DNA from: Pseudomonas sp. J452
Lineage (GTDB): Bacteria > Pseudomonadota > Gammaproteobacteria > Pseudomonadales > Pseudomonadaceae
Reading direction: 5' to 3'
Assembly: GCF_024666525.1 (NCBI RefSeq)
Contig: NZ_CP088294.1
Coordinates: forward strand, 248,001 to 312,000
DNA: 64,000 nucleotides
Shown here: piece by piece, positions 860-17,820 of the stretch
Numbering within the stretch: the stretch's first letter is position 1
How the letters are laid out: each line of letters begins with the position of its first letter
The notes under the pieces: generated by a model
The model's input: the letters and a program-made list of their open reading frames with translations, nothing else
Told to the model about the DNA's origin: nothing
Database searches by the model: none
Translations under genes and position numbers: made by a program

Positions 860-1768
860 TCAGTCGGGCGATCGGCCTCTTCTTAGCTCGACGGGTTCCA
901 GTACGGTCGAGGGCACTGCCAGACAATACTCCTGCTCAACACCTCTGCCCTTGCATTTGAGCAGGGCGAACAGGTCCCGCAGAGGCGGTTCCTGCCGCTC
1001 TAACCAAGGAAGCAGCGCCGGGACCAGGGCAAAGTTCTCTCGCCAGATGGTTTCGTCTCCATACTGATCGACTATTTCGGGACTCAGAAGCGGTACCAGC
1101 ATACCCGCGCCGGGCAAGGCCTCGGCTATGCGTCGGGCATTGGCCAGGCCAACTGGGTCAAGGTCGGGCAGCAGCCAGATCTTCGCGCCCTCCCAGCAAA
1201 CCAACAGCGCCAGCAGCCGATCAGACAGCCAGCCTTCGTAATGGGCCACCAGCGCGCCACTCAATGCTGCCGGCAGGCGTGTCGGCAGATGCAACAAGGT
1301 GTCGCGGTTTTCCACTAACACCACATGGCCGGTCGGTCTGGGTGTCGCTTCGGGCCTGCGCTCGTCGTGCCATAGCAGCTTCAGAAACGCAGGGGAAGGC
1401 GATTCCCATTGCAGGGCATTGCCCTGCGCATCCACCCAAGTAACAGCCTCACCAGCGCTGCAGCTGATCATGAGCGAGGGCAGTCGCCCCCCGCGCTTGC
1501 TCGAGCCGGCGTTGATGATGTTCAAGCCGCGCACCGAACAGCTGTCCAGATCCGTTGGCGGCTGCAGCCGGGCGATGCGCTGTCCTAGCGAATCCGAGTG
1601 CTGCACGATCACATGCGGCGACACGCGCCCGGGCACACGGCCCACCGTGACGATGCCGGAGACTCTGAGCTGATCGAGCACCGCTTCGAGTGCCTTCGGC
1701 CAACTGCGCACAGGGACAGGTCCTTTGCGCAACCGCTCGAGTATTTCCAGCTCTCTCGACCGATTCAT
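860..1768 (-). CDS. jetD: JetD (MksG-type) toprim nuclease subunit of Wadjet
   Basis: 302 residues. In Wadjet/MksBEFG systems this subunit cleaves circular DNA that the SMC complex has extruded. The C-terminal half shows a toprim-like pattern: the acidic strand VVLVENRDTLL near residue 150 and the DLD motif of LLPDLDPVGLANARRI near residue 202, the usual metal-binding positions of the DUF2220 family. The N-terminal third is a likely winged-helix or DNA-contact region. It is shorter than many JetD proteins I know (about 380-400 residues). The start overlaps the jetC stop by 4 bases (ATGA), so translation is probably coupled. Family assignment rests on the toprim motif plus jetA-B-C context. 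Confidence 0.82.
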   Translation of the reverse strand: MNRSRELEILERLRKGPVPVRSWPKALEAVLDQLRVSGIVTVGRVPGRVSPHVIVQHSDSLGQRIARLQPPTDLDSCSVRGLNIINAGSSKRGGRLPSLMISCSAGEAVTWVDAQGNALQWESPSPAFLKLLWHDERRPEATPRPTGHVVLVENRDTLLHLPTRLPAALSGALVAHYEGWLSDRLLALLVCWEGAKIWLLPDLDPVGLANARRIAEALPGAGMLVPLLSPEIVDQYGDETIWRENFALVPALLPWLERQEPPLRDLFALLKCKGRGVEQEYCLAVPSTVLEPVELRRGRSPD

Positions 1769-4689
1769 GGCTGCGCTACCGTGTCAGCCTTCGCGGTCTC
1801 CACCTGCAGGCTATCACCGAACTGCCCGACGTCTACCTCGTACTTCTCGTCTCTCTCGCTTTGCGGCGGAGCCTGCACCGGCTTGTCGTCTTCGGGATGG
1901 TCGAAGTGCTGCCAGTCCGCCTGGGTCACGTAGATACGGTTGTCGGTGTTGATGCACTCACTGATATTGATGCAGTAGCGCACCGTGGTAGTCGGGTCGA
2001 CGGATGCAAAAACAGGGGTGAAACCAAGGTTCTCGCTGAATGCCAAGATAGTGCGCTGGTTGCTCGGGTCAACCGAAGCAATCTCGTCCAGGTAGAACGG
2101 CAGGAAAGGTTCGACCCGGGCACCGCGGTCGGTCAGGTGACGGATCAGCGAGAAGTACAAAAGTGGCTTGAGCGTCATGGTCGAGCCATTAGAGGCCAGC
2201 TCGTCGAGTGTGTTGCAGACGATGACCTTGCCGTTGACCTCTTCCACAGTGAATCCGATGTCGAATAGGTCGCCGAGTTCAAGGGTACCGTCACGACCAT
2301 CTTCAACCAGACGAGACAGCCGATCCATGGCGCGCACCAGCTCGGTCTGGGATGCGCCCCCGCCTTGCTGGCCGAACAGGTCGGTCTCGTTTTCGTCAGC
2401 CTGGGCGATGTGTGAGGACAGGGTATTGATGGCGTCGAGTATCGGTTCGTTCCTCTTCAGATCTAACCTGAAGCCACGAAGGTTCGAGACTTTGCGCGCA
2501 TTGATCCGGCGGTTGAATAGCGAAATCTCGTGTTCCAGCGTCACGTAGTTCTCAGAAAGATCGCGCAGAGCCCCCGAGAGCTGGGCAATGCCCTCCTGAT
2601 GGTAGCGCTTGAGCATCTCACGCATTTGCGGCAGCGTTTCCAACCGCTCGCGTGCGTGCTGCACCAGATCGCTCAGACTCTCGTGTCGGGCAAGATCAGG
2701 TAGGTCGCCAACGATCGAGTGCTGGTAGTTCTTCATGGTCAGGGCTATGCGGTCGAGCGCGTTGCTGATCCACTCCAGCCGGTTCAGCGTGTCACCGAAG
2801 TTGTACCCGGTAAGATCGCGTTCGAAGGCCTCGGTCGGCCCGTCAGCAGGAATAAAGGGACTGTTCTGGATCTGGCGGTGCTGCTGCACGTCCTTGAGCT
2901 GGCGGGCCTGCTCGAGGGCATCGTTGAGCTTCTGCTCGATAACGTTGATGGTCCGGGTGGCACCCTCGATCCGCTCCTGGTGCCCTTGCAGCCACTCGTC
3001 GATCTGAGCGAGGCACATCATCACACCCTCGAGCACCTGACGATCAGCGGTCTCGGTGGCTTCCAAGACCTCGAGCTCGGTCAGCTCCTGCAGGTAGCCC
3101 TGCTGGTTGCTCAGCTGCTTTGCCAGCGAATCCAATTCGGTACGCTTGAGCGCCTGGTTCTGGGCAACCTCGAGTTGCCCCTGAAGCTTGGCCAGGTCCT
3201 CTTGATACATGGCGATCGACTGTTGCAGCTGCGCCGGGTCATCGCTATGAAAATCCATTGGAGGCAGATCGGTCAGGTCGAGCTCGAAACCCTGTAAATT
3301 TAGCAGCCCCTCCTTCGACATGAGTTGGGTGCGTACCCAATGGTTGAAACTGCCCGGGCGGATTTCGGTCAGCGCTGTAGCCTCAAGGCTGAACATGTCG
3401 CTGCGAAGCAGCCGCGACAGCTCGGCCTTTTCCGCATCGACAAAGCCCTGGGTATCCAACAGTCCGTCGCCATTGCGGATCTGCTCCAGCCGCTTGTTGA
3501 GCTTGCGAATTTCATGTTCAGTGTGGCGCAGCCTGCTGCTGACGGTTGCCACATCGTAGATGTCAGCCTGGCGCAACTGATCGCTGAGCGTGGCGTGCTG
3601 GGCTGTCAGTGTTCGAATCGACTTCTCGACCGCCTCGCGGCAGGTCATCGCATTGCGCTCGCGCAACTCGTCGAGGCGGGTCAGCCTGCCGGCCAAGGTG
3701 ATGCGCTGCTCGACCGTCCGGTCGCGCTCTTGCATGCGGCTATTAAGCTGTTCGTTGAGCTTGGCGCGCTTTTCGATTTCTCCCTTGTGCAGCGCGTTGA
3801 GCTGCTCGATGCATAGCGGTGTCCGCTCCACCGCCAGGGTCAGGTTTACCCGCAGCTCGCGCACCAGCCAGCCGCCTTCTTGCGAAAGTTCGGTGTATTC
3901 GTCGTATTCCTTGCCTAGGGCCAGGATGTCCTCGCGACGGTACCCCAGGCGCTCGACTTCCCGCTCGGCAAGACGAAAGCGCTGGAAGGCGCGCTCGCGG
4001 ACCTCTAGGAAGTTCAAATTGGCATTGCTCAGTTTTTCACTGAAGACGTTGAGGATGAGTTCCTTGATCTCGCGGCTCTTGAGTAGCGGCTGAGTGAGCA
4101 GGTTGCGATAGATCTGGCGGAACACCTGGTAGCGCCTTTCGTTGGCGTTGGCCAGCGGCACCATGGTCACGTCCCAGTCGCCGCCTTTGACCCGCCCGCT
4201 CTCTCCGTAGAGCATTTGGCGCATCTGTTCGCGGGTCAGGTTGCGCACCTCGATGCCCTGTTCGTACCAGTGGCGGAACAGCTCCTTGTAGGGGCGTATG
4301 CGGTTGATCGGGTCGACGAAGTCACCCATGTCCAGCTCACCTTTAGCCACGAACAGTTCATATTCGTTGCCGGCGGTAGGTCCCTTGCCGTGAGCACCGA
4401 CGATGAACACGCCGTCGGGGGTCAGCACCTCCATCAGTAGGTAGCTGTGGTCGCTGGGAAAGAAGAACGCGCGGCTGGTGTTGGCCTGGTGGGCGCCGAA
4501 GTGCATGTGTGCTAGGTGGGTGAAGAAGAGAAACTGCATGCTTTGCAGCGCCTGGGTCTTGCCCAAGTTGTTGTGTCCGCAGATGCTCAGTGGCCCGTCC
4601 ATGGGGAAGACCGACATGATGTGGTTGCCGGAGTTGACCATGGCGTAATGGCGCACGCCCCAGCGGGTCTTGAGTGCTTTGCTGCGCAT
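1765..4689 (-). CDS. jetC: JetC (MksB/MukB-like) SMC ATPase of Wadjet
   Basis: 974 residues. The loop-extruding SMC motor of a Wadjet system, which detects small circular DNA such as plasmids. The N-terminal head has a Walker A motif GHNNLGKT at residues 38-45. Long coiled-coil arms fill roughly residues 230-780 (repeated E, K, Q, R and L heptads with a hinge-like break). The C-terminal head has the signature-like segment SNGSTMTLKPLLYFSL and a Walker B PFYLDEIASVD near residue 865. An acidic, Gln-rich tail follows. It starts 2 bases after the jetB stop, with a GGAG site in the jetB end, and overlaps jetD. SMC-family identity is sure; Wadjet identity follows from the jetD partner. Confidence 0.9.
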   Translation of the reverse strand: MRSKALKTRWGVRHYAMVNSGNHIMSVFPMDGPLSICGHNNLGKTQALQSMQFLFFTHLAHMHFGAHQANTSRAFFFPSDHSYLLMEVLTPDGVFIVGAHGKGPTAGNEYELFVAKGELDMGDFVDPINRIRPYKELFRHWYEQGIEVRNLTREQMRQMLYGESGRVKGGDWDVTMVPLANANERRYQVFRQIYRNLLTQPLLKSREIKELILNVFSEKLSNANLNFLEVRERAFQRFRLAEREVERLGYRREDILALGKEYDEYTELSQEGGWLVRELRVNLTLAVERTPLCIEQLNALHKGEIEKRAKLNEQLNSRMQERDRTVEQRITLAGRLTRLDELRERNAMTCREAVEKSIRTLTAQHATLSDQLRQADIYDVATVSSRLRHTEHEIRKLNKRLEQIRNGDGLLDTQGFVDAEKAELSRLLRSDMFSLEATALTEIRPGSFNHWVRTQLMSKEGLLNLQGFELDLTDLPPMDFHSDDPAQLQQSIAMYQEDLAKLQGQLEVAQNQALKRTELDSLAKQLSNQQGYLQELTELEVLEATETADRQVLEGVMMCLAQIDEWLQGHQERIEGATRTINVIEQKLNDALEQARQLKDVQQHRQIQNSPFIPADGPTEAFERDLTGYNFGDTLNRLEWISNALDRIALTMKNYQHSIVGDLPDLARHESLSDLVQHARERLETLPQMREMLKRYHQEGIAQLSGALRDLSENYVTLEHEISLFNRRINARKVSNLRGFRLDLKRNEPILDAINTLSSHIAQADENETDLFGQQGGGASQTELVRAMDRLSRLVEDGRDGTLELGDLFDIGFTVEEVNGKVIVCNTLDELASNGSTMTLKPLLYFSLIRHLTDRGARVEPFLPFYLDEIASVDPSNQRTILAFSENLGFTPVFASVDPTTTVRYCINISECINTDNRIYVTQADWQHFDHPEDDKPVQAPPQSERDEKYEVDVGQFGDSLQVETAKADTVAQP

Positions 4690-4691
4690 CG

Positions 4692-5441
4692 TTACTCCGG
4701 GGTCTCGTCGTCTTCGTCGGGTTGGGTATTCAGAAAGTCGTCTGCCAGCTCGTCCACTGAGCGGTCGCTGTAGGAATAGTCTTCCCCACGCTCTTTGGCC
4801 TCGAGCTGTTGCTGATGCTGGTCAGCCAGGCGCCGGCAGATGTCGAGGTAGAAGTAGGCCGGCAGGCCCAGGGTGTAGGCGACCTTGTCTTGGGAGAGAC
4901 GGCGTTCATTCATCACCCCGACGTCGACCAGCCGGCGAATACCGTTGTCGATGAACGACTCCACACTGCCCAGTCCAAGACGGGTGAGCCGGTCGTGGTA
5001 CTGGTTGAACATCGCTCCCAGGTCGTCGAGGATGATCGGTTCTTCATGGGTGATCATCGATTCGATCGGAAGGCCCTTGTCGCACAAGTGTTCGATCAAG
5101 GAGAAGATCGCCGCTGCTGCCATGCGCTCGCGCTGGGGCAGCTGGGCCTGGCTCATCTCGCGCGGCTGCAGGTAGTAGAACCCTGTGGGGTGATGTCGCA
5201 GCTCATGCCCCATCATGCGCAACAACACCTCGTAGGTGTCCTGAAAGCGCGACAGCTCGCGATATTCCTTGATCCGGTCAGTGCTGCTGATAAAGCGCCC
5301 CGCCTCGAGCGCTTCGACAACCCGGGGGAACAGGCTGAGCTCGCGATCGAGGCGCTGGGCATAGTGTCTGGCATCGCGCACGCGATCTTCGAGCGACAGC
5401 TCGAGACCCTCGGCAGATTCGGCCTGAGGCAGATCATCCAT
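4692..5441 (-). CDS. jetB: JetB (MksE-like) Wadjet kite subunit
   Basis: 249 residues from the ATG at 5441, chosen for its GGGAG site 8 bases upstream and because it overlaps the jetA stop by 8 bases; a longer frame to 5522 would lie deep inside jetA. Mostly helical, with winged-helix-like segments (residues about 140-215, including 'LGSVESFIDNGIRRLVDVGVMNE') and an acidic tail (QPDEDDETPE). This fits the MukE/MksE 'kite' subunit that bridges the kleisin JetA and the SMC JetC. Sequence alone is weakly diagnostic; the call depends on order and neighbours. Confidence 0.8.
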   Translation of the reverse strand: MDDLPQAESAEGLELSLEDRVRDARHYAQRLDRELSLFPRVVEALEAGRFISSTDRIKEYRELSRFQDTYEVLLRMMGHELRHHPTGFYYLQPREMSQAQLPQRERMAAAAIFSLIEHLCDKGLPIESMITHEEPIILDDLGAMFNQYHDRLTRLGLGSVESFIDNGIRRLVDVGVMNERRLSQDKVAYTLGLPAYFYLDICRRLADQHQQQLEAKERGEDYSYSDRSVDELADDFLNTQPDEDDETPE

Positions 5442-6759
5442 CGGCGGGCTCCCGGGTAGGCAAGGGTTCGTAATGTCTGTAGAAGGCGATCGGGGCCGGT
5501 CGCCGCGGGGCCGGTTCGGCATTGTATGAGCGCCGGTTCATGCGGATTTCGAGTTCCTCAAATTGGTAGTGCTGCATGTCGTCGTGGCGCTGGATGAAAG
5601 GTGCAGTCTTATCTTCCATCGTCAGCCGGGTCAGCACGCGCAGCACCGAGTCGGGCCGGGCCTTGGGGTACTGAGCCATCAGCTTTGCGACAACATCCTC
5701 GACAGGCTGCTGCTGCTTCAGCCAGCTGAGCATCTGCGGGGATATCTCCCGGCGCTCGCGGGCCTCGAGCGCCGCGGCCGAGGGGGCGCGCACGAGGATC
5801 GCGTCGGGGGCAATCGACTGCAGCTCCTTGAGCTGCGCCCACCAGGCCTGCAGCGAATCCTGGTCAGGCTTGTGGACGCGTCGCTTGCGCGGCGGCAGGG
5901 CCAGAGTGTCACTGCGCGTCAATTGGCTGCTGTGGTGGCCAAGGTCCTGAAGTCCCAGCGCCGCTCCCTGGGCGATGCGCGCATTGATCTGCGCCTGGCG
6001 CACAAGCGGCGCCAGATGGCTCGCCATGTTCTCGATCGAATGATTGAGGCTCTCGCGAAAATCGAGCATGCGAAACAGGATGCTGTCTATTTCGTAGCGG
6101 GCATCATCCATGCTCAGCAGGTGCAGCGCCGGGTCCTGCTGCCACTCCTGCAGGGTGCGTTTGATGCGCATGAGCGAAAGATCGAACGGCCCACCCATGC
6201 TCTTCATCTGCAGCGCCGGTGTCACGTACTCGTCCCAGGCCTTGATCACCTGCTCATAGCGCTCGGCCAGCGGCTGGCTCTGATCCGAGCGCTTGGCCTT
6301 GTCCACCAGCGCGTAGATAGCACGTCTATTAGATTCAACCATGCGGCGCAACGTCTGAAAGCGCGACTGCATCTCCTGGGACTTGGCAAAAAAGCCCGTG
6401 CGCCGACCGCTGAGCAGGGCCGCAGCCAGCTCTTCAAGGTGCCCCTCGAGCCTGTTGGCGTTAGCGCTGATCTCCTCGATCAAGCCCAGACTCTGCTCAT
6501 CGAGCAAAAACTGCACAAAGGGCACGATCTGCAGGTTCAGCGAATAGCCCCGCCCACCGCGGGAGAACTCCGAAAGGATGCCGATATCGACCATGCGCTT
6601 GACTGCCACCTGCTCAGGCTGGTCGGTGCCGACAATGAACGGCCGTACGATATGCAGCAGTTCGCGCTCGGTCAGGGTGCGGGTTTCGTAGCGAGACCAG
6701 ATGGTACTTACGATGTCCCAGCAGTCACCAAGGGCGCGAATGAATGACCGTGGTTTCAT
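5434..6759 (-). CDS. jetA: JetA (MksF-like) Wadjet kleisin subunit
   Basis: 441 residues. Kleisin of the Wadjet/Mks complex, expected to join the two JetC heads. The N-terminus (residues 1-90) reads as a winged-helix domain that ends 'VDIGILSEFSRGGRGYSLN'. Residues 100-300 are long helices, and the C-terminal 70 residues form a small domain ending in basic residues, as in MukF/MksF proteins. A GAGG site precedes the ATG by about 5 bases. It is the first Wadjet gene, 85 bases after the second MBL gene, and I see no clear terminator in that gap. It could therefore be read with the upstream MBL-E2/E1/JAB-MBL genes. Confidence 0.8.
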   Translation of the reverse strand: MKPRSFIRALGDCWDIVSTIWSRYETRTLTERELLHIVRPFIVGTDQPEQVAVKRMVDIGILSEFSRGGRGYSLNLQIVPFVQFLLDEQSLGLIEEISANANRLEGHLEELAAALLSGRRTGFFAKSQEMQSRFQTLRRMVESNRRAIYALVDKAKRSDQSQPLAERYEQVIKAWDEYVTPALQMKSMGGPFDLSLMRIKRTLQEWQQDPALHLLSMDDARYEIDSILFRMLDFRESLNHSIENMASHLAPLVRQAQINARIAQGAALGLQDLGHHSSQLTRSDTLALPPRKRRVHKPDQDSLQAWWAQLKELQSIAPDAILVRAPSAAALEARERREISPQMLSWLKQQQPVEDVVAKLMAQYPKARPDSVLRVLTRLTMEDKTAPFIQRHDDMQHYQFEELEIRMNRRSYNAEPAPRRPAPIAFYRHYEPLPTREPADG

Positions 6760-6844
6760 TGAGCCTCAGACCTACTACAGATAAATGGGACATAGACTGC
6801 CCATGCTCTGGAGCCTGGAAAGCAGGGCCGCCCCTCTACTAGGC

Positions 6845-7915
6845 TCAACTTTCTTGCTCTTCGGGATACGCTGCTTGGGGAATTGATACCCATCCATCAC
6901 GGGTGATGCCTGCCCCGATGCGTATGTTCTGACTTTCGGTTGCTGACCAATGCCCACCCCGGTGCAGTACAGCGCGAATCACCGACTTCCGTGGATGATC
7001 CTCATCCGCCTTGGCAGAGCTGCATATGGCATTCCAGGTATGTTTGTCTGGCATGCTGTCCAACCTTGGGCCAACCAACTGATCCAGAATCTCAGTCGAA
7101 ACATTGTGTCGCCCGCCATGATGCGGCACCTGGAAATACCGAATGCCGGGCAACGTAAGTCCCGCAAAAGGTGCGTAGTCAATCACCTCTTGCAGCGCTT
7201 CACGCCCGGCGTCGCCAGTAAGCATGACGCGATGGCCATTCAGGACAGCCGACTGCACTACACTCATTTCATTTTCACGACTAGTTGGCGCAGACGGAAA
7301 ATACTCGTCGCCCCACAAGGATTTGATGTAGGAGGTCGCAGCCTTAACTGCCCGAAAAATGCTGCTCAGAGCACTATCCATGGCACCTTCTTCAACAGCT
7401 TCAGGTGTCTTCGTGGAATCCACGATTAAGTCCATGTAGCGACCTAGCGTCGGTGCCATCACCGTGAAGGGGCCGATGCTCTGCCCCTGAAGCGGGGCAT
7501 GAATGGGGATTCCCTTCTCAACCGCAATATCCTCAAGAGCTGCAGTGGCATCGTAGACAGAACGTAATTTCCGCCTCAGCGCTTCCACCGACTCATAGGT
7601 CTCGAAGCGATCTATCAATTGCTCTGCATATATCCACGGCCTATTGATCCAGAGATTCCTGACCGAGCATTGTTCCAAGACTTTTCGAAGCCCATTGGCG
7701 TGATCGCGATCCGGATGCGTGAGGATCACGTGATCGATAACTGTTGTGCCGTAGTAGGTTTTCAGGTGCTCAACGATCTGATCCCCGGTATCCAGATAAC
7801 CACCGTCAACCACATGTATACCTTCGGTGCCATTTACCGAGTAGCGCAGCGTGATCGCATCCCCGCTCTTCGCTGTTTCGACGCCAAGAAAATCGATCTC
7901 AAAGTAGTCAGCCAT
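6845..7915 (-). CDS. MBL-fold hydrolase, third gene of the E1/E2/JAB module (MBL2)
   Basis: 356 residues from the ATG at 7915, preceded by AGAGGG; an upstream ATG at 7960 abuts the previous stop and lacks a site. A metallo-beta-lactamase-fold protein of the ComEC-like branch. It has the metal motif HPDRDH at residues 67-72, a 'MLTGDAG' strand and the later 'VPHHGGRHN' histidines. No signal peptide, so cytoplasmic. Such proteins in defence loci are predicted nucleases or phosphodiesterases; the substrate here is unknown. It follows the E2/E1/JAB gene by 45 bases. It is not an antibiotic beta-lactamase by family or context. Confidence 0.85.
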   Translation of the reverse strand: MADYFEIDFLGVETAKSGDAITLRYSVNGTEGIHVVDGGYLDTGDQIVEHLKTYYGTTVIDHVILTHPDRDHANGLRKVLEQCSVRNLWINRPWIYAEQLIDRFETYESVEALRRKLRSVYDATAALEDIAVEKGIPIHAPLQGQSIGPFTVMAPTLGRYMDLIVDSTKTPEAVEEGAMDSALSSIFRAVKAATSYIKSLWGDEYFPSAPTSRENEMSVVQSAVLNGHRVMLTGDAGREALQEVIDYAPFAGLTLPGIRYFQVPHHGGRHNVSTEILDQLVGPRLDSMPDKHTWNAICSSAKADEDHPRKSVIRAVLHRGGHWSATESQNIRIGAGITRDGWVSIPQAAYPEEQES

Positions 7916-7960
7916 ACATCCCTCTTGCCTAATACCAACGAAGTGCCGGTGGTTTTCCAC

Positions 7961-10216
7961 CTACCAGCGATCCACCGCACATGTGAGTCCTGTCGGAGTC
8001 CATACCAACGACACAGCAGGAAGGCCACCAGCATCCTCGGCGATGCCGCGTAACGTATGTCGGTCTATACCCGAATGAGCGCCGCCTTTCGGATGGCTGT
8101 GCCAAGTGCCGATAAAGGCGAGATATCCCAAAGAGGCCGAATTCGCAGTACGCAAATTTTGAACAAGCCCATCGGTGCCCAAAACGAAGCGTGCGGCCTC
8201 TCGAACGCTGTCTGGCGGTGCGTCAACAAGCCCCGCAATGATGATGGTTCGATTTTCAAACGAGATGCGGCCGACCAAGGCGCCGCCTGTTTCCAACGCG
8301 CCCCAGCGCAGCGCATCAGCATGGATCGCTTGCGCGACCGTGTGCAGAATCCGAATGTTCCAGCCACCATCGTCCGCTACATCGAGCACAGTGGTGGTGC
8401 CAAGGCTGGCGCGGGTCCATGCTATGCCGAGGCCTTCGGCATCCGAGATCCCAGCGCAAAGCGTCGCTTCCTCCGGAAGCCCGTCAACGAGCCAGCGTTC
8501 CAGTTGTAGCCCAGCAAGTGAAGCAGACCGCGAAACGACGGCATCAGACATTGGCATGGTCAGTGAGCGGCAGTTGTCACCCACAAAAATACGCGTCGGC
8601 TCGGATGTATCACCGGCAATCGACGCACGCAGTTCCGGCACAAATCGGCAGCACTCGAACAAGAATGCCGTGAGGTCATCAACCCGACCGGCGCGACCAG
8701 GTCCTTCGAGCAAAACTGCAACACAGCGGCCCTGACCATACATCGCGATCCGTACCAGCCGGGCAGGTGATTGATCCAGCGCTGTCGATTGTGTTTCTGC
8801 GGCCAGCACCTGAAGTGAAGCCGTTGCGTCCACGATGAGCGCTGCATCCTGCGGAACGGTTGTGGCGAACTGTGCCGAATCGACCAGGAGGGTCACTGCG
8901 TCGGCGTCGAACGCGCGCGATTGAAGATGCGACAGCTCCTCAAAGGCCGTCTTCATCAGAGCCACCTTCCGAGGTGGAACCAGCACTGATGCCCTCTCAA
9001 TGAGTGCATGCCGTGCTGCGTTGTGAGGCGACATGGATTCGTTGTCGACGAAAGCCATTGAGCCGAAACCGGCTCGCCCCAGGTGCATCGCGATTTTCGA
9101 CCCTACGCTTCCGCAGCCGAGCATGACCAGCGGCTGCGATGTGGGCGCCGCTGGAATGCCGGACGTCCTTGCCAGCAGTTCGGGAGATAACGCATGCGCG
9201 TGGAAGGCCGGGTGAACCGTGGCATTTCGATCCAGGAGCGATTGAGCGTTGAGCTCATAGCGCACCACGTAGGGCAATACCTCGACACTTCTCCCTGGAG
9301 AGCCAACAAGCGACGCAGGCCGCTGTACAGTCAGAATTACAATCGCGTACAAGCCATGCGTCCAGGCACGCGAGTCTTGCCGCATATCCAAGATCGAACG
9401 TCCGTAGTAGCCGTCCAGGCCTTGGGCCAAAGCGTCGCGATCAATACCCAGTTCCGCTGCTCGATCGAACAACGTCGCGAGATCGACAACCGTCTCGGGT
9501 TGGTAGTGGCCGACCACATGCGGGTGGCCGCCGACCATTGGGGCTCGCGCAATGAAGACCGCGGCATGGCCATTTCCCCATTTACCCAACTTGTCGTTGT
9601 GAACATCTTGGGAAAACACAGGATCGACTTGTGCGGTCAGTTCGGCGTTGACGATGGCGTATAGCCCGCCATCAATCGTCACGTATCCGGCGGGGACCAC
9701 CAAAATAGTGCCGTCAGCGGGAGCCGCGGCCGCGACCTTCTCAGCGCTAAACACAACGGTTGAAGGGCAACTGTCTCGACGCGTCGGCTCCCACCCATGC
9801 TCCAGGTCCAGCAGAGTCCCGGCTGCGGCTTTATGCAGCCAATCAATCAACTGATCGACAATGGCATCCAGGCCAAATCGATGCAGTAGCTCGTCCAAAG
9901 ATCCCTCGAACAGGCAAGGTGAGACCAGCTCACCTTCGCGGTGGGGGTTGATGTGTGGCAACTTGAGCGGGAAGTCCGTACGCAAGAAAGGCTTGGGCGC
10001 GGATAGGGGCCAGTCACTGCCGAATACCAGAACGCATGTCTCGACCGAGCGCACGCCGGTCTCGGATACGCCATTGCGCCGAGACCGGCTCGGCAGTTCA
10101 ACAGCAACATCGACTTCAATCTGCGTCGATTCCCCGCTTATCCTTGGCTCCTTAACGCGGACAAGGCCTCGATGCCGCTGAAGTTGATGCAGTGCGTCCG
10201 CGATGCTGTCCGTCAT
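7961..10216 (-). CDS. E2-E1-JAB triple-domain ubiquitin-like conjugation protein
   Basis: 751 residues combining three activities usually split over two or more proteins. Residues 1-150 are E2-like: 'PHINP' (87-91) and a candidate catalytic Cys101 in SPCLF, followed by the helix 'IDWLHKAAAGTLLD' that is also typical of CBASS Cap2. Residues about 350-600 are a ThiF/E1-like adenylyltransferase with the nucleotide loop GCGSVG (367-372), VDNESMSPHN, and Cys549 in GDNCRS as a candidate thioester cysteine. Residues 635-751 are a JAB/JAMM isopeptidase: Glu642, His706-Ser-His708, Ser715 and Asp718. The start overlaps the MBL1 stop (ATGA). Expected to attach and remove a protein C-terminus, but no free ubiquitin-like gene or CD-NTase is nearby. 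Confidence 0.88.
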   Translation of the reverse strand: MTDSIADALHQLQRHRGLVRVKEPRISGESTQIEVDVAVELPSRSRRNGVSETGVRSVETCVLVFGSDWPLSAPKPFLRTDFPLKLPHINPHREGELVSPCLFEGSLDELLHRFGLDAIVDQLIDWLHKAAAGTLLDLEHGWEPTRRDSCPSTVVFSAEKVAAAAPADGTILVVPAGYVTIDGGLYAIVNAELTAQVDPVFSQDVHNDKLGKWGNGHAAVFIARAPMVGGHPHVVGHYQPETVVDLATLFDRAAELGIDRDALAQGLDGYYGRSILDMRQDSRAWTHGLYAIVILTVQRPASLVGSPGRSVEVLPYVVRYELNAQSLLDRNATVHPAFHAHALSPELLARTSGIPAAPTSQPLVMLGCGSVGSKIAMHLGRAGFGSMAFVDNESMSPHNAARHALIERASVLVPPRKVALMKTAFEELSHLQSRAFDADAVTLLVDSAQFATTVPQDAALIVDATASLQVLAAETQSTALDQSPARLVRIAMYGQGRCVAVLLEGPGRAGRVDDLTAFLFECCRFVPELRASIAGDTSEPTRIFVGDNCRSLTMPMSDAVVSRSASLAGLQLERWLVDGLPEEATLCAGISDAEGLGIAWTRASLGTTTVLDVADDGGWNIRILHTVAQAIHADALRWGALETGGALVGRISFENRTIIIAGLVDAPPDSVREAARFVLGTDGLVQNLRTANSASLGYLAFIGTWHSHPKGGAHSGIDRHTLRGIAEDAGGLPAVSLVWTPTGLTCAVDRW

Positions 10217-11406
10217 GATGCACCGTGCGGCATGGGAGTGCGCGCTGAGGTGATCACGGCTGCGGCCTTCGATCCAGCCTCCTTCTTCGAGGGAGGCTGC
10301 ACACCCTGAGCGGTGACGATAAACACTAGAGGCTCGACAGATTTTTCGCTCGGGTATTCGCCCGTGCAGTAAAACTCGCCTTTTGCTTCGTCCACGATTG
10401 CTACGTACTCTCGCTTTGCACGGATGCAGGGCGGATCACTGGCGTCGTCTGCAATCGGCTTACAACTGGCGACAATGACAGCACCGTCACGCGTCTGCGA
10501 AAGCGCCTTACGAGCGTCGGCGTCGAGTTTGGCCTTCTCGCCGTAGTCGGACCAGCTGTCATAGGACAGCGAATGCCAGGAACAGTGATGCGGTACCTGC
10601 ATGATGTCGTACTCAAGCACATCGGTTTCGGTCTTGTGGCGCTGCCACTGGCGGTTCCAGATGAATACCTCAGCATCGCCGCCAGTAAGGAATTTCGCAC
10701 CATCTGGCGTCTGCGCATCAGCAGCCAATGTGATGTTCAGGATCACGCTCGACTGGTTCTTGACCAGGCACTCTTCCTCTTCTTCGTCGTCCTGGGCATC
10801 CAGGGGCGCCAGAAGAAACGCGGAGAAGAATGCGGAACTCTTGCCATTGATCGTCGAGAAGCGCGTGTCCACCCTCCGCACAATCGGAGTGAGATCATCA
10901 GTCTTTCCGTCGATGTCCTCGCCCATGATCTGAATACGGTCACCGTTCCCGACGGCAAAATTCTTGTCGCGGTTCAGCTGTACCCGCCGACGCGCCTCCG
11001 TGTTGAATGCCTTGGCGTCGTCGCTCAATGTGTGCGTCTTGCTGGCGCGTCGAAACACGATCGGGGACGACCACATCTCGCGGATCACGATCTTTTTGTC
11101 CTTGTCGTCCTTCTTGTCATCTGGGTACGTGTCCAGCGGCCCCAGGTGGAAGTGCCGAGTCAGGCCTCGACAATGGTCTTGGTCTGGGTGGCTCAGCAAG
11201 AACGCATCGACATAAGGCCTACCGTTTTCATCCCTCTTCAAACGGTCGCGCAGATCCGTGGCGACATCGCGCGCCTCCCCATCAGGGTCGTCGGCATCCT
11301 GCCTGATGTTTACGTCGATCAGGAGGGTGGTTACGTCGATATCGCCGAACTTGATAAGGGCCATATCCCCGTTGTCTACGGGGAAAAACGTGATGGTTGT
11401 GGGCAT
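10213..11406 (-). CDS. MBL-fold hydrolase, first gene of the E1/E2/JAB module (MBL1)
   Basis: 397 residues, metallo-beta-lactamase fold, cytoplasmic. Metal motif HPDQDH at residues 73-78, then FLTGGDAEVF and VPHHCSWHS in the second half. It carries two charged inserts (DDKKDDKDKK and a DDEEEEE run) and a flexible, Ala/Ser/Lys-rich tail of about 25 residues ending HGAS. A GGAG site lies 6 bases before the ATG. It is the promoter-proximal gene of the seven-gene run and faces the WYL regulator. It differs clearly from MBL2, so the two are not a simple duplication. It may cut nucleic acid or a small phosphodiester; its tail is a candidate conjugation tail (inference). Confidence 0.85.
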   Translation of the reverse strand: MPTTITFFPVDNGDMALIKFGDIDVTTLLIDVNIRQDADDPDGEARDVATDLRDRLKRDENGRPYVDAFLLSHPDQDHCRGLTRHFHLGPLDTYPDDKKDDKDKKIVIREMWSSPIVFRRASKTHTLSDDAKAFNTEARRRVQLNRDKNFAVGNGDRIQIMGEDIDGKTDDLTPIVRRVDTRFSTINGKSSAFFSAFLLAPLDAQDDEEEEECLVKNQSSVILNITLAADAQTPDGAKFLTGGDAEVFIWNRQWQRHKTETDVLEYDIMQVPHHCSWHSLSYDSWSDYGEKAKLDADARKALSQTRDGAVIVASCKPIADDASDPPCIRAKREYVAIVDEAKGEFYCTGEYPSEKSVEPLVFIVTAQGVQPPSKKEAGSKAAAVITSARTPMPHGAS

Positions 11407-11455
11407 CTGGGTCTCCAGGTAGACGACCTAAGGAGTAGTCGCGTATATTTAATGT

Positions 11456-11476
11456 ACGGATATTATTTATATCCGT
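11456..11476. promoter_or_regulatory. Inverted repeat in the divergent promoter region; candidate WYL operator
   Basis: Perfect 8-bp arms ACGGATAT (11456-11463) and ATATCCGT (11469-11476) around 5 AT bases, in the 90-base gap between MBL1 (minus) and the WYL gene (plus). A second short dyad, GTAGAC at 11419-11424 and GTCTAC at 11475-11480, flanks it. CapW/BrxR-type WYL regulators bind palindromes in the promoter of their own defence operon, so this is the natural site. I could not fix -10/-35 boxes with confidence. Confidence 0.6.
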
Positions 11477-11496
11477 CTACTTTTTAGGCGGTCACC

Positions 11497-12399
11497 ATGA
11501 AAGAAACCTCGATTACTACTGCCGAACCCTCTGAGTCCAAGGGCTTGAGCTGGGGCTTGGAGAGCAGACTCCAGTTCATCGATTTTCGTCTGCGCTGGGA
11601 GCGGCGCATCAATCGGATGGATCTCACCGAGCACTTTGGCATATCGGTTCCTCAGGCATCACTGGACATTGCCAAATACACTGAGTTGGCACCGAGCAAT
11701 CTGACTTATGACCGCAGCTCCAAGACCTACACAGCCACTCTGCATTTTCAGCCGCTTTACCAACGAAGCTCGGCGCAACGCTATCTAGCGGAACTGCTGG
11801 CGACCAAGATGGGAATTGTCGAACCGAGAGCCACCTTTATCGGCTCAGCGCCCGAGACCGATTGGGCACCTTCCCCCTGGCGCACGATCAATGAGCAGAC
11901 CGTAGAAGCAGTGGTCCGAGCCATTCGGCAGCAGGAAGCTATTCGAGTGAGCTACCAGTCCATGACGTCTCTGGACGAATCAATCCGGTTACTTTCGCCG
12001 CACGCTCTTGGCAATGACGGTTTCCGCTGGCATGTGCGCGCGTATTGCCACAAGCGTCAGCGCTTCAGCGATTTTGTTCTCGCCCGAATTTTGCGCATCG
12101 AAGATTTCGAGCCGAGCCATGTGGACTCCAGCCAGGATGCGCATTGGCACACCGTGCTGACGCTAGTGCTTGCGCCGCATCCCGATTTGCCTGCAACCAA
12201 GAAACGAGTCTTGGAACTGGACTACGGCATGGAAGACGGGCAGGTCAAACTTCCCTGTCGTCAAGCATTTCTGTACTACACGCTAAGGCGTTTGGGCTTG
12301 CATACCAAGGAAGCGCCAGATCCTCTCGCGCAACAGATCACGCTGAGAAATCGCGATGAAATCCAACCCTACATCGATGCTTTGACAGCTCAGGCCTGA
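11497..12399 (+). CDS. WYL-domain transcriptional regulator (CapW/BrxR-like)
   Basis: 300 residues. N-terminal winged helix-turn-helix (residues about 25-75: 'RINRMDLTEHFGISVPQASLDIAKY'), central WYL domain (about 125-210, with 'QQEAIRVSYQSM' and 'SPHALGNDGFRWHVRAYC') and a C-terminal WCX-like domain. This layout is that of the repressors CapW (CBASS) and BrxR (BREX), which silence defence genes until infection or damage is sensed. An AGGCGG site precedes the ATG. Divergent from the MBL-E2/E1/JAB run and separated by an inverted repeat, it is the likely repressor of that run and of itself. The ligand is unknown. Confidence 0.85.
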   Translation: MKETSITTAEPSESKGLSWGLESRLQFIDFRLRWERRINRMDLTEHFGISVPQASLDIAKYTELAPSNLTYDRSSKTYTATLHFQPLYQRSSAQRYLAELLATKMGIVEPRATFIGSAPETDWAPSPWRTINEQTVEAVVRAIRQQEAIRVSYQSMTSLDESIRLLSPHALGNDGFRWHVRAYCHKRQRFSDFVLARILRIEDFEPSHVDSSQDAHWHTVLTLVLAPHPDLPATKKRVLELDYGMEDGQVKLPCRQAFLYYTLRRLGLHTKEAPDPLAQQITLRNRDEIQPYIDALTAQA

Positions 12400-12405
12400 C
12401 ATCCC

Positions 12406-13197
12406 ATGACAACAATTTTCGAACTAGTTAAAGACCCGTACGAGCGCAAGGCTCGCGTAGTTCCAGGTCTTCTCGTGGCATTGCCATTGCTCGTCCCTTT
12501 GATATGCGTATACGGAGCAAAGCACCCTGTGCTCACAGGTGTTATCGGTTTACTTGGCGGCTGCGGTGCCATTTACGCGCTTGCGAGCGTGGCACGCGGG
12601 CGCGGCAAAAAGCTTGAAGAGCTTTTAGTTAAAAAATGGGGAGGCATGCCTACAACCATAGCTCTGCGGCATCGCGACAATTTTCTCGATAATGTCAGCA
12701 AGCAGAGGTACCACTCCGCGATCACTACCAAACTGGGTATTGATATACCAACGGCAGAAGAAGAATCAGCGAACCCTGACAAAGCAGACGATACCTACAT
12801 TGGAGCAACCAAGCGACTTCGCGAACTCACGCGCACCAATAAGCAACTTCTGCTGAAAGAGAATATTGCCTACGGATTTCACCGCAATATGCTGGCAATG
12901 AAGCCCGTCGGCATCGTGTCGAGCCTCTTGGGAGTCCTCTACGGATTGCTGATTGCAAAGGTTCTGCAGATAACGCCTCCCCATTTTTTCCCCGTACACT
13001 TTGCCGACCCGGGGCTCGCCGCTGGCTTGACGTTACTTATTTCGATGGCGCTACTTGCGGCCTGGCTGCTGTATTTCGATCAGAGTGCCGTCAGACGTAT
13101 GGGATTCGTGTATGCGGAACGCCTATTTGAGTGTTTACCGTCACTGACTTCTTCAGCATCACGAAAGAAAGCGCCAAAATCGACACCTACAGAATGA
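12406..13197 (+). CDS. Uncharacterised membrane protein downstream of the WYL regulator
   Basis: 263 residues, not recognised. Hydrophobic segments lie at about 20-37 and 42-60, and again at about 165-185 and 205-228. A cytoplasmic-looking charged stretch (residues 65-160) separates the two pairs, so four membrane passes are likely. The C-terminus is short, Ser/Lys/Pro-rich and basic. It starts 7 bases after the WYL stop, so it is surely co-transcribed with the regulator. Paired membrane proteins in defence loci often act as effectors that damage the envelope; nothing in the sequence proves that here. Confidence 0.65.
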   Translation: MTTIFELVKDPYERKARVVPGLLVALPLLVPLICVYGAKHPVLTGVIGLLGGCGAIYALASVARGRGKKLEELLVKKWGGMPTTIALRHRDNFLDNVSKQRYHSAITTKLGIDIPTAEEESANPDKADDTYIGATKRLRELTRTNKQLLLKENIAYGFHRNMLAMKPVGIVSSLLGVLYGLLIAKVLQITPPHFFPVHFADPGLAAGLTLLISMALLAAWLLYFDQSAVRRMGFVYAERLFECLPSLTSSASRKKAPKSTPTE

Positions 13198-14682: not shown

Positions 14683-15939
14683 TTAAACCGCAGCACTCAG
14701 CACCGGCACGACCACATTGTCCGGCAACAGTTTCGGCACATGAGTGCGACCTTCGATCCAGGCATCGACCATATCCGCCCACTCCTGCAGCATGTGGCGC
14801 CGCTGCTCGGCGTACTCGGCCTTGTTGTAGACCGATCGCGAAGAACGTCCATCCTCGTGCGCCAGGCACTTCTCGATCCAGTCGCCATTGAAGCCTACTT
14901 CGTTAAGCAACGTAGAGCCCGTCCGGCGCAAGTCGTGAACCGTGAATGGCTCCAACGGCAGTCCAGCCTCCTTGGCACGCGATGCGATAAGTTGCGTGAT
15001 CCGGTTCAACGTTGCGTGCGACATGCAGCGATAAATCTCATAGCGCGATGGCAGCACGAACTTGGAGCCACCAGCACAGGTGTGCAGTGCCACGAAAATG
15101 TCCAGGCACTGGCGTGATAGGTAGACCACATGCGGATTACGCCCCTTCATCCGTTGCTTTGAGATCGTCCAGGTGGCGCTTTCAAAGTCCACCTCATCCC
15201 AGGTCGCCTCGATTAACTCGCTCTTGCGCACCAGGGTCAGCAGCACCAGTCGCAAGGCCAGCCTGATGGTGGGGTACGCCGCGATGGATTCCAACTGATG
15301 GAAAGCCAGGCGTATCTCCGTCGGAGTCAACGCTCGGTCCTTCGGCACAAAGGTGGCAATCGAGGCCGCCTTCACATCGTTGGCCGGATTGTCGATTTTC
15401 TCCCCATGCAGGGCCGCGAACGCATACACCTGCTTCACGATGTCACGAATGTGGACGGCCGTGGCCGGGGCACCGCGAGCTTTTACCTTGGCACAGAGTG
15501 CCCGCAGGTCGTCAGGAGTGACTTCAGTCAGGAGCCGGTTCTCGAAGACCGGCAGAATGTCGCGGTCGATGATGCTCTTGCGCATTGCCCGCGTACTGTC
15601 GGCCATGCGCGCATCGGCCAGCCAGCTCTTCAGCATCTCGCCGAACGTCTTGGCGGCTGTCAGGCGTCGCTTGGCCCTCTGCTTCTCCAGGGAGGGTGAG
15701 TTTCCCTGGGCGACCATGCGCTTGGCATCGAGCAACTTTTCGCGAGCCATGGCCAACGAAATGCCCACTGGGCCATACCGCCCAATGGTCAGAGTTTCCC
15801 TGCGTCCATTGAGACGGTAATCGTAGCGAAAGGTGACGGTACCGCTAGGCGATACCGTCACGTACATGCCATCGCGGTCGGAAGCCTTGTACGGCTTGGC
15901 CTTGGGTTTGAGATTGCGCAGTGCGGTGTCGGTAAGCAT
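14683..15939 (-). CDS. P4-type tyrosine integrase of the island
   Basis: 418 residues from the ATG at 15939 (MLTDTALRNLKPK), chosen for the AGGAG site 10 bases upstream; the frame also extends to 15978. N-terminal arm-binding DUF4102-like domain (residues 1-90, with SDRDGMYVTVSP and LTIGRYGPVGISLAMAR), a core-binding SAM-like domain, and a C-terminal catalytic domain. The catalytic domain shows Arg in LTLVRKSELIEATW, HDLRRTG (His and Arg), the second His in CLAHEDGR, and the nucleophile Tyr in SVYNKAEY. All key residues are present, so it looks active. Placed at the guaA 3' end, reading away from it, it marks the right end of the island. Confidence 0.92.
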   Translation of the reverse strand: MLTDTALRNLKPKAKPYKASDRDGMYVTVSPSGTVTFRYDYRLNGRRETLTIGRYGPVGISLAMAREKLLDAKRMVAQGNSPSLEKQRAKRRLTAAKTFGEMLKSWLADARMADSTRAMRKSIIDRDILPVFENRLLTEVTPDDLRALCAKVKARGAPATAVHIRDIVKQVYAFAALHGEKIDNPANDVKAASIATFVPKDRALTPTEIRLAFHQLESIAAYPTIRLALRLVLLTLVRKSELIEATWDEVDFESATWTISKQRMKGRNPHVVYLSRQCLDIFVALHTCAGGSKFVLPSRYEIYRCMSHATLNRITQLIASRAKEAGLPLEPFTVHDLRRTGSTLLNEVGFNGDWIEKCLAHEDGRSSRSVYNKAEYAEQRRHMLQEWADMVDAWIEGRTHVPKLLPDNVVVPVLSAAV

Positions 15940-15968
15940 CGAGGTTTTTCTCCTGTTCATGACGGCTT

Positions 15969-16220
15969 TTACCGTCAAGGGTCAGGAGACCTGCTGATGC
16001 CGGGAAAGCCGCGTAACAGAAGCTTTCCCAAGGAGAGATTTACCGTCAAAGACCGGTTTGGTCTCGATAGTAAACGGGAGGGTCTTAATCCGACCTCCGG
16101 TTCCTACCGTCACCGCTACCGCCAAACCATTCTGCTGCCTGGCGATAGTCACCGATAGATACCGTGACGTGTTTTCTTTCAAATCAACACGTTACAGCAT
16201 CTTATCGATAGGTACCGATA
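15969..16220. repeat. Short repeats TACCGTCA / ACCGATAG between integrase and guaA
   Basis: This stretch of about 300 bases has no gene. TACCGTCA occurs at about 15970, 16041 and 16105, and TACCGTGA at about 16160. ACCGATAG occurs at 16151-16158 and 16213-16220. Spacing is irregular. Such clusters next to a P4-type integrase are usually arm-type binding sites for the integrase and its excision factor. Seen directly; the role is inferred. Confidence 0.5.
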
Positions 16221-16224
16221 GTCC

Positions 16225-16270
16225 CCGAAGGACCTGATTTCACTCCCACTCGATGGTCGCTGGCGGCTTG
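16225..16270. other. Likely right attachment site at the guaA 3' end
   Basis: The 3' end of guaA is a known integration hotspot for islands with this kind of integrase, and the island starts directly after the guaA stop at 16240. I found no second copy of the guaA end inside bases 1-16,200. The other attachment site must therefore be left of the window, or the core is too short to see by eye. Confidence 0.4.
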
Positions 16271-17820
16271 CTCGACACGTCGTAGGTGACGCGGGAGATG
16301 CCTTCGATCTCGTTGATGATGCGGTTGGAGACCTTCTCCAGCAGCTCGTAGGGCAGGTGCGCCCAACGTGCGGTCATGAAGTCGATGGTTTCCACGGCGC
16401 GCAGGGCGACGACCCAGGCGTAGCGACGGCCGTCACCGACCACGCCGACCGACTTCACCGGCTGGAACACCACGAAGGCCTGGCTGGTCTTGTGGTACCA
16501 GTCGAAGTTGTGCAGTTCTTCGAGGAAGATGTGGTCGGCGCGACGCAGGATGTCGGCGTACTCCTTCTTCACTTCGCCGAGGATGCGCACGCCCAGGCCC
16601 GGGCCTGGGAACGGGTGGCGGTAGACCATGTCGTACGGCAGGCCCAGCTCCAGGCCGATCTTGCGCACTTCGTCCTTGAACAGTTCGCGCAGCGGCTCGA
16701 CCAGCTTGAACTGCATGTCTTCCGGCAGGCCACCAACGTTGTGGTGGCTCTTGATCACATGGGCCTTGCCGGTCTTGGCGCCGGCCGACTCGATCACGTC
16801 CGGGTAGATGGTGCCTTGGGCGAGGAACTTCACGTCCTGCAGCTTGGTGGCTTCCTGATCGAACACTTCGATGAAGCTGCCGCCGATGATCTTGCGCTTC
16901 TGCTCCGGGTCGCTGACGCCAGCCAGACGGCCAAGGAACAGCTCTTCGGCGTTGGCACGGATGACCTTGACGCCCATGTTCTCGGCGAACATGGCCATCA
17001 CCTGATCACCCTCGTGCAGGCGCAGCAGGCCGTTGTCGACGAACACGCAGGTCAGCTGGTCGCCGATGGCCTTGTGCAGCAGCGCCGCGACCACCGAGGA
17101 GTCGACGCCGCCGGACAGGCCCAGCAGCACCTTGGACGAACCGACCTGGGCACGCACGGTGGCGATGGCGTCTTCGACGATATTGGCCGGGGTCCACAGG
17201 GCCGCGCAGCCGCAGATGTCGAGGATGAAGCGCGAGAGGATGCGCCCGCCCTGCTTGGTGTGGGTCACTTCCGGGTGGAACTGCACACCGTAGTAGCCGC
17301 GCACATCGTCGGCCATGGCGGCGATCGGGCAGCTCGGGGTGCTGGCGAGGATGTGGAAGCCGGCCGGGATCTCGGTGACCTTGTCGCCGTGGCTCATCCA
17401 CACATCGAGGCCGAATACGCCGTCGGTGTCGACGTGGTCTTCGATGCCATCGAGCAGGCGGCTCTTGCCGACCACGTCGACGCGGGCGTAGCCGAACTCA
17501 CGCAGGTCGGAACCCTGCACACGACCACCGAGCTGCTCGGACATGGTCTGCATGCCGTAGCAGATGCCGAAGATCGGCACATTCAGGTCGAACACCGCCT
17601 GCGGCGCGCGCGGGCTGTTGGCCTCGTGCACAGACTCCGGACCGCCGGCGAGGATGATGCCCTTCGGCGCGTAGGCGCGGATGGCGTCGTTCTCCATGTC
17701 GAACGGGTGGATTTCGCAATACACACCGATCTCGCGCACGCGGCGGGCGATCAGCTGGGTGTACTGGGAACCGAAGTCCAGAATCAGGATGCGGTGGGCG
17801 TGAATGTCAGGGTGAGCCAT
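16240..17820 (-). CDS. guaA: GMP synthase (glutamine-hydrolysing)
   Basis: 526 residues, the normal length. Converts XMP to GMP with ATP and glutamine. The N-terminal class I amidotransferase has the nucleophile in FGICYGMQ and the His/Glu pair in [10 protein letters not shown]. The ATP-pyrophosphatase has [14 protein letters not shown] near residue 230. The C-terminal dimerisation domain ends [17 protein letters not shown], complete despite the island beside it, so integration rebuilt the 3' end. It lies 82 bases after guaB with a hairpin between them. Confidence 0.98.

Follow-up and report, generated by a model that had tools for sequence, protein, structure and literature searches.

Related conjugation systems

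The Bil and Bub operons encode E1, E2 and JAB, and they employ a ubiquitin-like protein. A locus with the same three modules is found in Pseudomonas sp. J452, in a 64,000-nucleotide stretch of contig NZ_CP088294.1 (positions 248,001 to 312,000, here called the window, whose own numbering is used below). A single E2-E1-JAB protein lies there between two proteins of the metallo-beta-lactamase (MBL) fold, termed MBL1 and MBL2. Unlike Bil and Bub, the locus has no ubiquitin-like beta-grasp domain recognised by Pfam in any of its five cassette proteins, short reading frames lying outside that search. From sequence comparison, MBL1 is probably the 'missing' modifier, i.e. the tag that would be attached to other proteins.

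A second comparison is with the type II cyclic-oligonucleotide-based anti-phage signalling system (CBASS). The relevant sections of Jenson et al. (PMC10097602) report that the cyclase has a C-terminal glycine or alanine that is conserved where Cap2 and Cap3 are both present and not in other architectures. Without this residue conjugation ceases and defence is weakened, and it is directly after this residue that Cap3 cleaves a linear fusion (PMC10097602). The cassette described here shares with type II CBASS its E2-E1 and JAB domains, a CapW regulator and, where an effector gene would be expected, a neighbouring gene for a membrane protein or a patatin; an operon enzyme also has a glycine at or near its C-terminus. 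It differs in that no CD-NTase (cGAS/DncV-like nucleotidyltransferase) is recognised, a ComEC-type MBL standing instead, in that E2-E1 and JAB form one protein, and in that a second MBL may be present. The initial annotation had regarded the core as a separate system related to CBASS, and the comparison bears this out.

The absence of a CD-NTase was looked for in several ways. Pfam, PADLOC and NCBIfam give no CD-NTase match among the five cassette proteins. At 73 loci the 5 kb around the core were scanned with a simple motif, and the one match is inside a DnaK-like chaperone and was rejected. The single SMODS match of the genome is 3.48 Mb away on the contig, with a Cap2-like neighbour of its own; SMODS does not represent every CD-NTase and the motif is crude. 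Within the limits of both tests, homologues of the core do not appear always to sit with a CD-NTase, an outcome that would have spoken against a separate system. The distant pair is a CBASS-like locus (L078:7630-10651; C1:3745.6-3748.7 kb). Its cyclase (PADLOC Cyclase, 785 bits) ends in VGRLG and directly precedes the E1-type, Cap2-like protein, and next, at C1:3748888, is a 106-aa frame of which 50 residues match JAB weakly enough to be called JAB-like only.

The two-gene core of MBL1 and E2-E1-JAB is already catalogued, a point overlooked by the initial annotation. In NCBIfam 20.0 the 751-aa E2-E1-JAB protein scores 560.5 bits against NF058523 ('anti-phage 6A-MBL system cap2_3 protein', cut-off 320), and MBL1 scores 435.3 bits against NF058524 (cut-off 220). 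The core thus agrees with 6A-MBL in having E2, E1 and JAB in one protein adjoining a specialised MBL, both over curated cut-offs. The name '6A' presumably derives from row 6a of Iyer et al. (2006; PMC1779556), whose section on these operons describes the triple-module protein as almost always beside a metallo-beta-lactamase, usually in two genes, and names no modifier. The NCBIfam models differ from the cassette in that they name two proteins only, and TM-A, CapW and MBL2 match none over cut-off. NF058524 aligns along its whole length to MBL1 residues 7-368, and therefore the tail and its glycine are left out of the model.

The term '6A-MBL' occurs in no paper found by a literature search limited to Creative Commons-licensed PubMed Central papers. 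A broader literature search yielded descriptions of such operons only in Iyer et al. (2006) and, as a passing mention in the passages retrieved, in PMC13373217. Seven published operons beside CapK and CapS are probably of the same kind, but the passages that describe them mention neither a site of conjugation nor effectors nor any second MBL. Weak profile matches also link the MBL proteins to a ComEC-like group that includes the Avs1a, LmuA and reverse transcriptase-associated MBL proteins of PADLOC; scores are well below that of the 6A-MBL model, and the partners of those proteins were not found here.

MBL1 and its C-terminal glycine

MBL1 (positions 10213-11406, minus strand) is a 397-aa ComEC-like metallohydrolase and the proposed conjugated protein. 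Both MBL1 and MBL2 have the MBL fold, as had been recognised at the outset, with HxDxDH and PHH motifs, and the HxDxDH motif together with the ComEC-domain fold places MBL1 among the ComEC-type MBLs. Its metal motif H73-P-D75-Q-D77-H78 (11173-11190, minus strand) and residues D244, H273 and H274 are invariant in an alignment of 41 rows. A sequence search for relatives of solved structure found none at E 0.01.

The AlphaFold model of MBL1 has a mean predicted local distance difference test score (pLDDT) of 88.9, with residues 376-397 below 50. The disordered tail proper (residues 376-395; 10222-10281, minus strand) terminates in His394-Gly395 and is followed by Ala-Ser (10216-10221), which is proposed to be trimmed; relatives have a variable extension of 0-6 residues beyond the glycine. 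G395 is invariant in the 41-row alignment, with identities down to 21%, and also in the 47-row set used for folding. The smaller alignment has no row from the VGFG group (L033, L034, L076, L115 and L124, loci being designated by L and a number), and the larger one includes L034.

The pattern holds at several depths of sampling. Among 21 MBL1 sequences below 75% identity, the window included, the tail is rich in Ala and Ser and drifts, with the glycine at or near the end: HG is found in 17, YG in two, AG in one and a looser match in L033, and the final residue is Gly in 11. In a closer set, the 115 homologues with lengths of 380-415 aa among the 120 best of 3158, HG is within the last 14 residues in 114; 39 stop exactly at HG and the other 75 have 34 different extensions, mostly of two residues. 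In 28 clusters below 60% identity a glycine is at most six residues from the end in every case and Gly is exactly terminal in 13 (binomial 1.9e-5 against a tail background of 0.13, relatedness ignored). L134 was dropped before this count because an IS5 element is at the end of its MBL1 gene. The residues that precede the glycine (HG, RAG, YG, VGFG) track clades.

The initial annotation described the module as being without a visible modifier. This is not supported, because the C-terminal His-Gly of MBL1 is a good candidate. MBL1 is likely the tag because its floppy tail bears a glycine that is conserved at or near the end in nearly all relatives, and use of this glycine as the conjugation site, which we consider likely, is the firmest of the proposals made here. 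By the standard of a terminal Gly or Ala as in CBASS, G395 is invariant but two residues before the end, and 13 of the 28 clusters end in G. MBL1 may then follow a rule like that of the C-terminal glycine of CBASS cyclases, including the cyclase of its own genome.

Two other candidates for the modifier were rejected. The E2-E1-JAB protein as its own modifier is disfavoured by a DRW ending in 91 of 114 homologues. Most of 111 MBL2 homologues end in an acidic QE-x (three end QEG) and none has HG in its last 14 residues. The earlier suggestion that an MBL protein is the conjugated enzyme is therefore likely right for MBL1 and not for MBL2.

The five-gene cassette

Three packed genes on the minus strand were correctly located by the initial annotation, as a check of the open reading frames confirms. 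These encode MBL1, the E2-E1-JAB protein (7961-10216), whose gene overlaps that of MBL1 by 4 bp, and MBL2 (6845-7915). The limits given earlier require correction: the probable start of MBL2 is the ATG at 7915 (356 aa) and not the GTG at 7960, because most homologues are listed at about 356 aa, and the conserved unit continues beyond 11406 to 13197. By sequence comparison the unit is five genes (6845-13197), with those for TM-A, a membrane protein, and CapW divergent from the other three; that these two belong to it had gone unnoticed.

The unit is taken to exceed three genes because homology ends near the outer gene ends of the five-gene block. In a blastn comparison of the window with 32 loci, 22 show a single homology block with limits at 6816-6845 and 13161-13197, i.e. 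at or within about 30 bases of the ends of the MBL2 and TM-A genes. DNA identity within the blocks is 79-88%, and the hosts are as distant as Acinetobacter, Burkholderiaceae and Azospirillum. The cassette is found in unrelated genomes as well as on plasmids. L006 and L017 have longer common flanks, including Mks-like genes; in L021 and L030 a gap interrupts the block; and L003, L019, L024, L025, L027 and L029 match in part only. All 25 loci listed as close cassettes have MBL2, TM-A and WYL matches, some of the MBL2 matches being partial; several of these loci bear nearly identical elements and are not independent. TM-A is absent in L024. In positions 20000-64000 of the window, a six-frame scan with profiles of the five cassette proteins gave no further matches.

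The E2-E1-JAB protein matches Prok-E2_A (5e-56), ThiF (6e-10) and Prok-JAB (2e-11) in Pfam. The E2 domain (residues 5-165; 9722-10204, minus strand) has His88 and the catalytic Cys101 (9914-9916). The ThiF-type E1 domain (approximate limits 8537-9196, minus strand; Pfam residues 364-467) has the GCGSVG motif and the catalytic Cys549 (8570-8572), and in a profile search this part matches the Cap2 structures 7tsq and 7to3 (E 3e-16). The JAB isopeptidase domain (approximate limits 8006-8362, minus strand; Pfam residues 627-737) has E642, H706, H708, S715 and D718. The catalytic residues named earlier are all present, and an alignment of 16 homologues shows no variation at C101, G367, G369, G372, C549, E642, H706, H708 or D718. 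The named E2, E1 and JAB residues are likewise present throughout the 41-row alignment except in L076, where an insertion sequence interrupts the protein before C549 and the part from C549 on is missing.

MBL2, a 356-aa ComEC-like metallohydrolase, matches PADLOC PDC-M48B (PDLC04676, 510 bits) and is within the conserved block. Its profile finds a second MBL in only four of the 28 clusters. L025, 75% identical in E2-E1-JAB, retains four genes, and its MBL2 position is taken by another kind of MBL (PADLOC PDLC04674). As an optional component that lacks the glycine motif, MBL2 would be an accessory hydrolase and perhaps an off-switch.

The proposed effector position

Near the core, 17 of the 28 MBL1 clusters have a membrane protein of 140-320 aa, eight a patatin-like phospholipase, and in three neither is seen; membrane proteins were called by a simple hydropathy rule and the tally was read by eye from locus tables. 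The patatins match Pfam PF01734 in all seven clusters tested, and the eighth, L076, was assigned by motif. Patatins are a known class of CBASS effector (CapV). In L033 and L124 the patatin is fused to the C-terminus of E2-E1-JAB. An additional annotated patatin is one gene further on in L127, and one is at the edge of the locus in L131. The effector-type gene varies in position, being beyond the divergent WYL gene in L001 and L096, after MBL2 in L071 and upstream of MBL1 in L123.

On a quick tree of 40 E2-E1-JAB proteins, membrane protein and patatin were exchanged at least five times, e.g. between the well-supported sister rows L122 and L135. An effector label was available for 35 rows; the truncated L076 was dropped, and L033 and L124 were cut before the patatin domain. 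Core proteins at patatin loci also exceed the 6A-MBL cut-offs (both in L130, MBL1 in L128). A component switches type while the core stays, and it therefore resembles effectors in CBASS.

In the window this position is taken by TM-A (12406-13197, plus strand), a membrane protein of 263 aa and a candidate effector. Its homologues mostly have three or four hydropathy segments; they can be recognised at identities as low as about 30% and share a conserved YGFxRN block. No family of Pfam, NCBIfam or PADLOC matches TM-A itself over cut-off.

Two side observations concern this part of the locus. The TM-A gene is split into two frames in L017 (Stutzerimonas BAL361; L017:7018-7810), and its cassette neighbours are full-length by tblastn. 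DUF2235 genes lie about 4 kb or less from four 6A-MBL cores (L029:15156-16634, L081:9106-10650, L092:1-787 and L093:8089-9132), named by annotation and in L029 only from a reading of the gene start; they are possibly another lipase-type partner.

The CapW regulator

The divergent WYL protein (11497-12399, plus strand) is a full-length homologue of CapW, with the helix-turn-helix (HTH)-WYL architecture of the CapW/BrxR regulators. Its residues 10-292 of 300 match Stenotrophomonas maltophilia CapW, 7tb6, with E 3.8e-74, and Pfam finds the WYL domain. Between this gene and MBL1 is a perfect 8-bp inverted repeat with a 5-nt spacer (11456-11476), which is a candidate CapW operator. The palindrome is common only to the window, L006 and L017, with small spacer changes, and is not among the repeats listed for other loci.

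Other genes are occasionally found at or next to this position. A gene for an IrrE/M78-type peptidase is upstream, in the usual place of CapW, at L031:6862-7599, L114:9673-10581 and L130:1491-2378; in L130 it is accompanied by a helix-turn-helix gene, an arrangement like that of CapH and CapP. A short nucleotidyltransferase of the GSHARGD..SDTD type adjoins the WYL gene at L073:5430-6113, L085:2947-3630 and L086:2969-3652, and that of L086, the one of the three that was scanned, has weak PADLOC matches only.

Distribution and genomic surroundings

NF058523 is over cut-off in six of 398 sampled genomes of the phylum, and NF058524 in five of 385 genomes of one class and five of 369 of the class of the window; the samples include the genome of the window or one already found. 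Among 72,556 plasmid records E2-E1-JAB has matches in 280, of which 30 cover at least 80% of the protein length, and it has no match in 50,697 phage records. Klebsiella accounts for 164 of the plasmid matches. One of these, L140, has an MBL1 with the ending PRAG-VSNQ and its E2-E1-JAB, from which a WYL gene and a small hypothetical gene diverge. Loci are on plasmids and beside integrases, and some adjoin restriction-modification genes.

The locus scan covered 88 loci. It left out the short L036-L070 and L104-L113 together with L079 and L118-L121, several of which are covered in longer form. Fifteen of the 88 have no usable MBL1/E2-E1-JAB pair; these include L019 and L030, which are incomplete close relatives, L116, which is on a short contig, L117, whose MBL1 is spread over two frames, and L125, whose MBL1 is at the end of a contig.

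In the window, a divergent MksF/MksE/MksB-like set, all members of which are below NCBIfam cut-offs, is at 860-6759 with a weak JetD-like gene; a similar set adjoins the cassette in L006 and L017. On the other side, a tyrosine integrase (14683-15978) is next to the 3′ end of guaA (16240-17820), which suggests an island inserted at the guaA 3′ end. The far end was sought as a repeat of window positions 15980-16360, and none of 14 bp or more was found in the 94 kb to the left.

Proposed mechanism and alternatives

We infer conjugation, arming and phage defence from sequence comparison. The reading that we favour, with somewhat better than even confidence, is that this five-gene cassette of the 6A-MBL kind has MBL1 in the place of the cyclase, and that MBL1 is conjugated via its C-terminal glycine and arms a membrane-acting effector. 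CapW would keep the operon off until DNA damage or infection. JAB, which would be the natural trimming enzyme where residues follow the glycine, would remove those after Gly395 (Ala-Ser here) and later undo conjugates. Cys549 and then Cys101 would carry MBL1 as thioesters via its glycine, and MBL1 would finally be linked to lysine residues on proteins of the host or the phage. In this conjugated state MBL1 might then become active and switch on the membrane protein (the patatin in other lineages), and effector activation would halt the infected cell. MBL2 would be an accessory hydrolase. Effector arming and the involvement of a messenger are much less sure than the conjugation site.

A number of observations weigh against this scheme. 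One closer MBL1 homologue of the 115, P0081, ends in EAGS and is the sole one without HG. The tail preceding HG is rather conserved in the other 114, several positions exceeding 90%, and therefore drift is visible only in the wider set. A glycine at most six residues from the end is likely by chance in any single tail with 13% Gly, and 15 of the 28 clusters would require trimming, an inferred step, before E1 could act. Similarity to E2-E1-JAB or to MBL1 was the basis on which loci were collected; therefore MBL1 homologues without E2-E1-JAB, the proper control, were not found. As to the effector, clusters L093, L114 and L131 show none, and the same is true of L100 and L138. The AlphaFold2 model of TM-A is poor (pLDDT 52, predicted template modelling score 0.39), and the effector roles are assigned by position and the simple hydropathy rule.

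A tentative extension likens the cassette to a CBASS without a cyclase. MBL1, activated by conjugation, would make or remove a small messenger that gates the interchangeable membrane effectors, with MBL2 as the matching off-switch.

Bil is reported to disable phage tail proteins, and MBL1 might likewise be a conjugated warhead that is attached through Gly395 to phage proteins and disables them directly, with no signal to the neighbouring gene. The same C-terminal glycine evidence applies, and the ComEC-like fold suggests a hydrolase that could act where it is placed. However, 25 of 28 clusters have a membrane protein or patatin close to the core, in two of them fused to E2-E1-JAB, and such a partner would be superfluous for a self-sufficient warhead, which makes this alternative unlikely.

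A stress response is rather more doubtful still. CapW would open the cassette upon DNA damage, and conjugation of MBL1 would tune host proteins. The presence of the regulator fits, and, in the passages retrieved, a study of the related Bub operons does not decide this question either (PMC13373217). On the other hand, NCBIfam labels the pair anti-phage, the patatins are of a CBASS effector class, and the loci have the plasmid, integrase and restriction-modification surroundings described above.

The usual cargo of E1 domains in this superfamily is a beta-grasp protein, and ThiS and MoaD are present in most bacteria. This leaves some room for a small ubiquitin-like modifier encoded elsewhere, with MBL1 only the substrate or effector. 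It is nevertheless very improbable: no such Pfam domain is in the five cassette proteins, the invariant C-terminal glycine of MBL1 would be left unexplained, and the CBASS adduct, which had been sought as a ubiquitin-like protein, turned out to be the cyclase (relevant sections of PMC10097602). A core of two genes, with MBL2, CapW and the membrane protein as passengers only, would fit the scarcity of MBL2-profile matches and the usual two genes in the section of Iyer et al. (PMC1779556), but it is scarcely credible given the homology limits at the outer gene ends in 22 of 32 loci and the substitute MBL type in L025.

Significance

Under the favoured reading, in which MBL1 is the conjugated protein, Gly395 is the one residue on which the whole conjugation idea can be probed. 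The slot filled by a membrane protein or a patatin suggests a system built like CBASS, with a hydrolase replacing the cyclase. If this is true, Cap2-type machinery would be a general means of arming immune enzymes and would not be tied to cyclic nucleotides.

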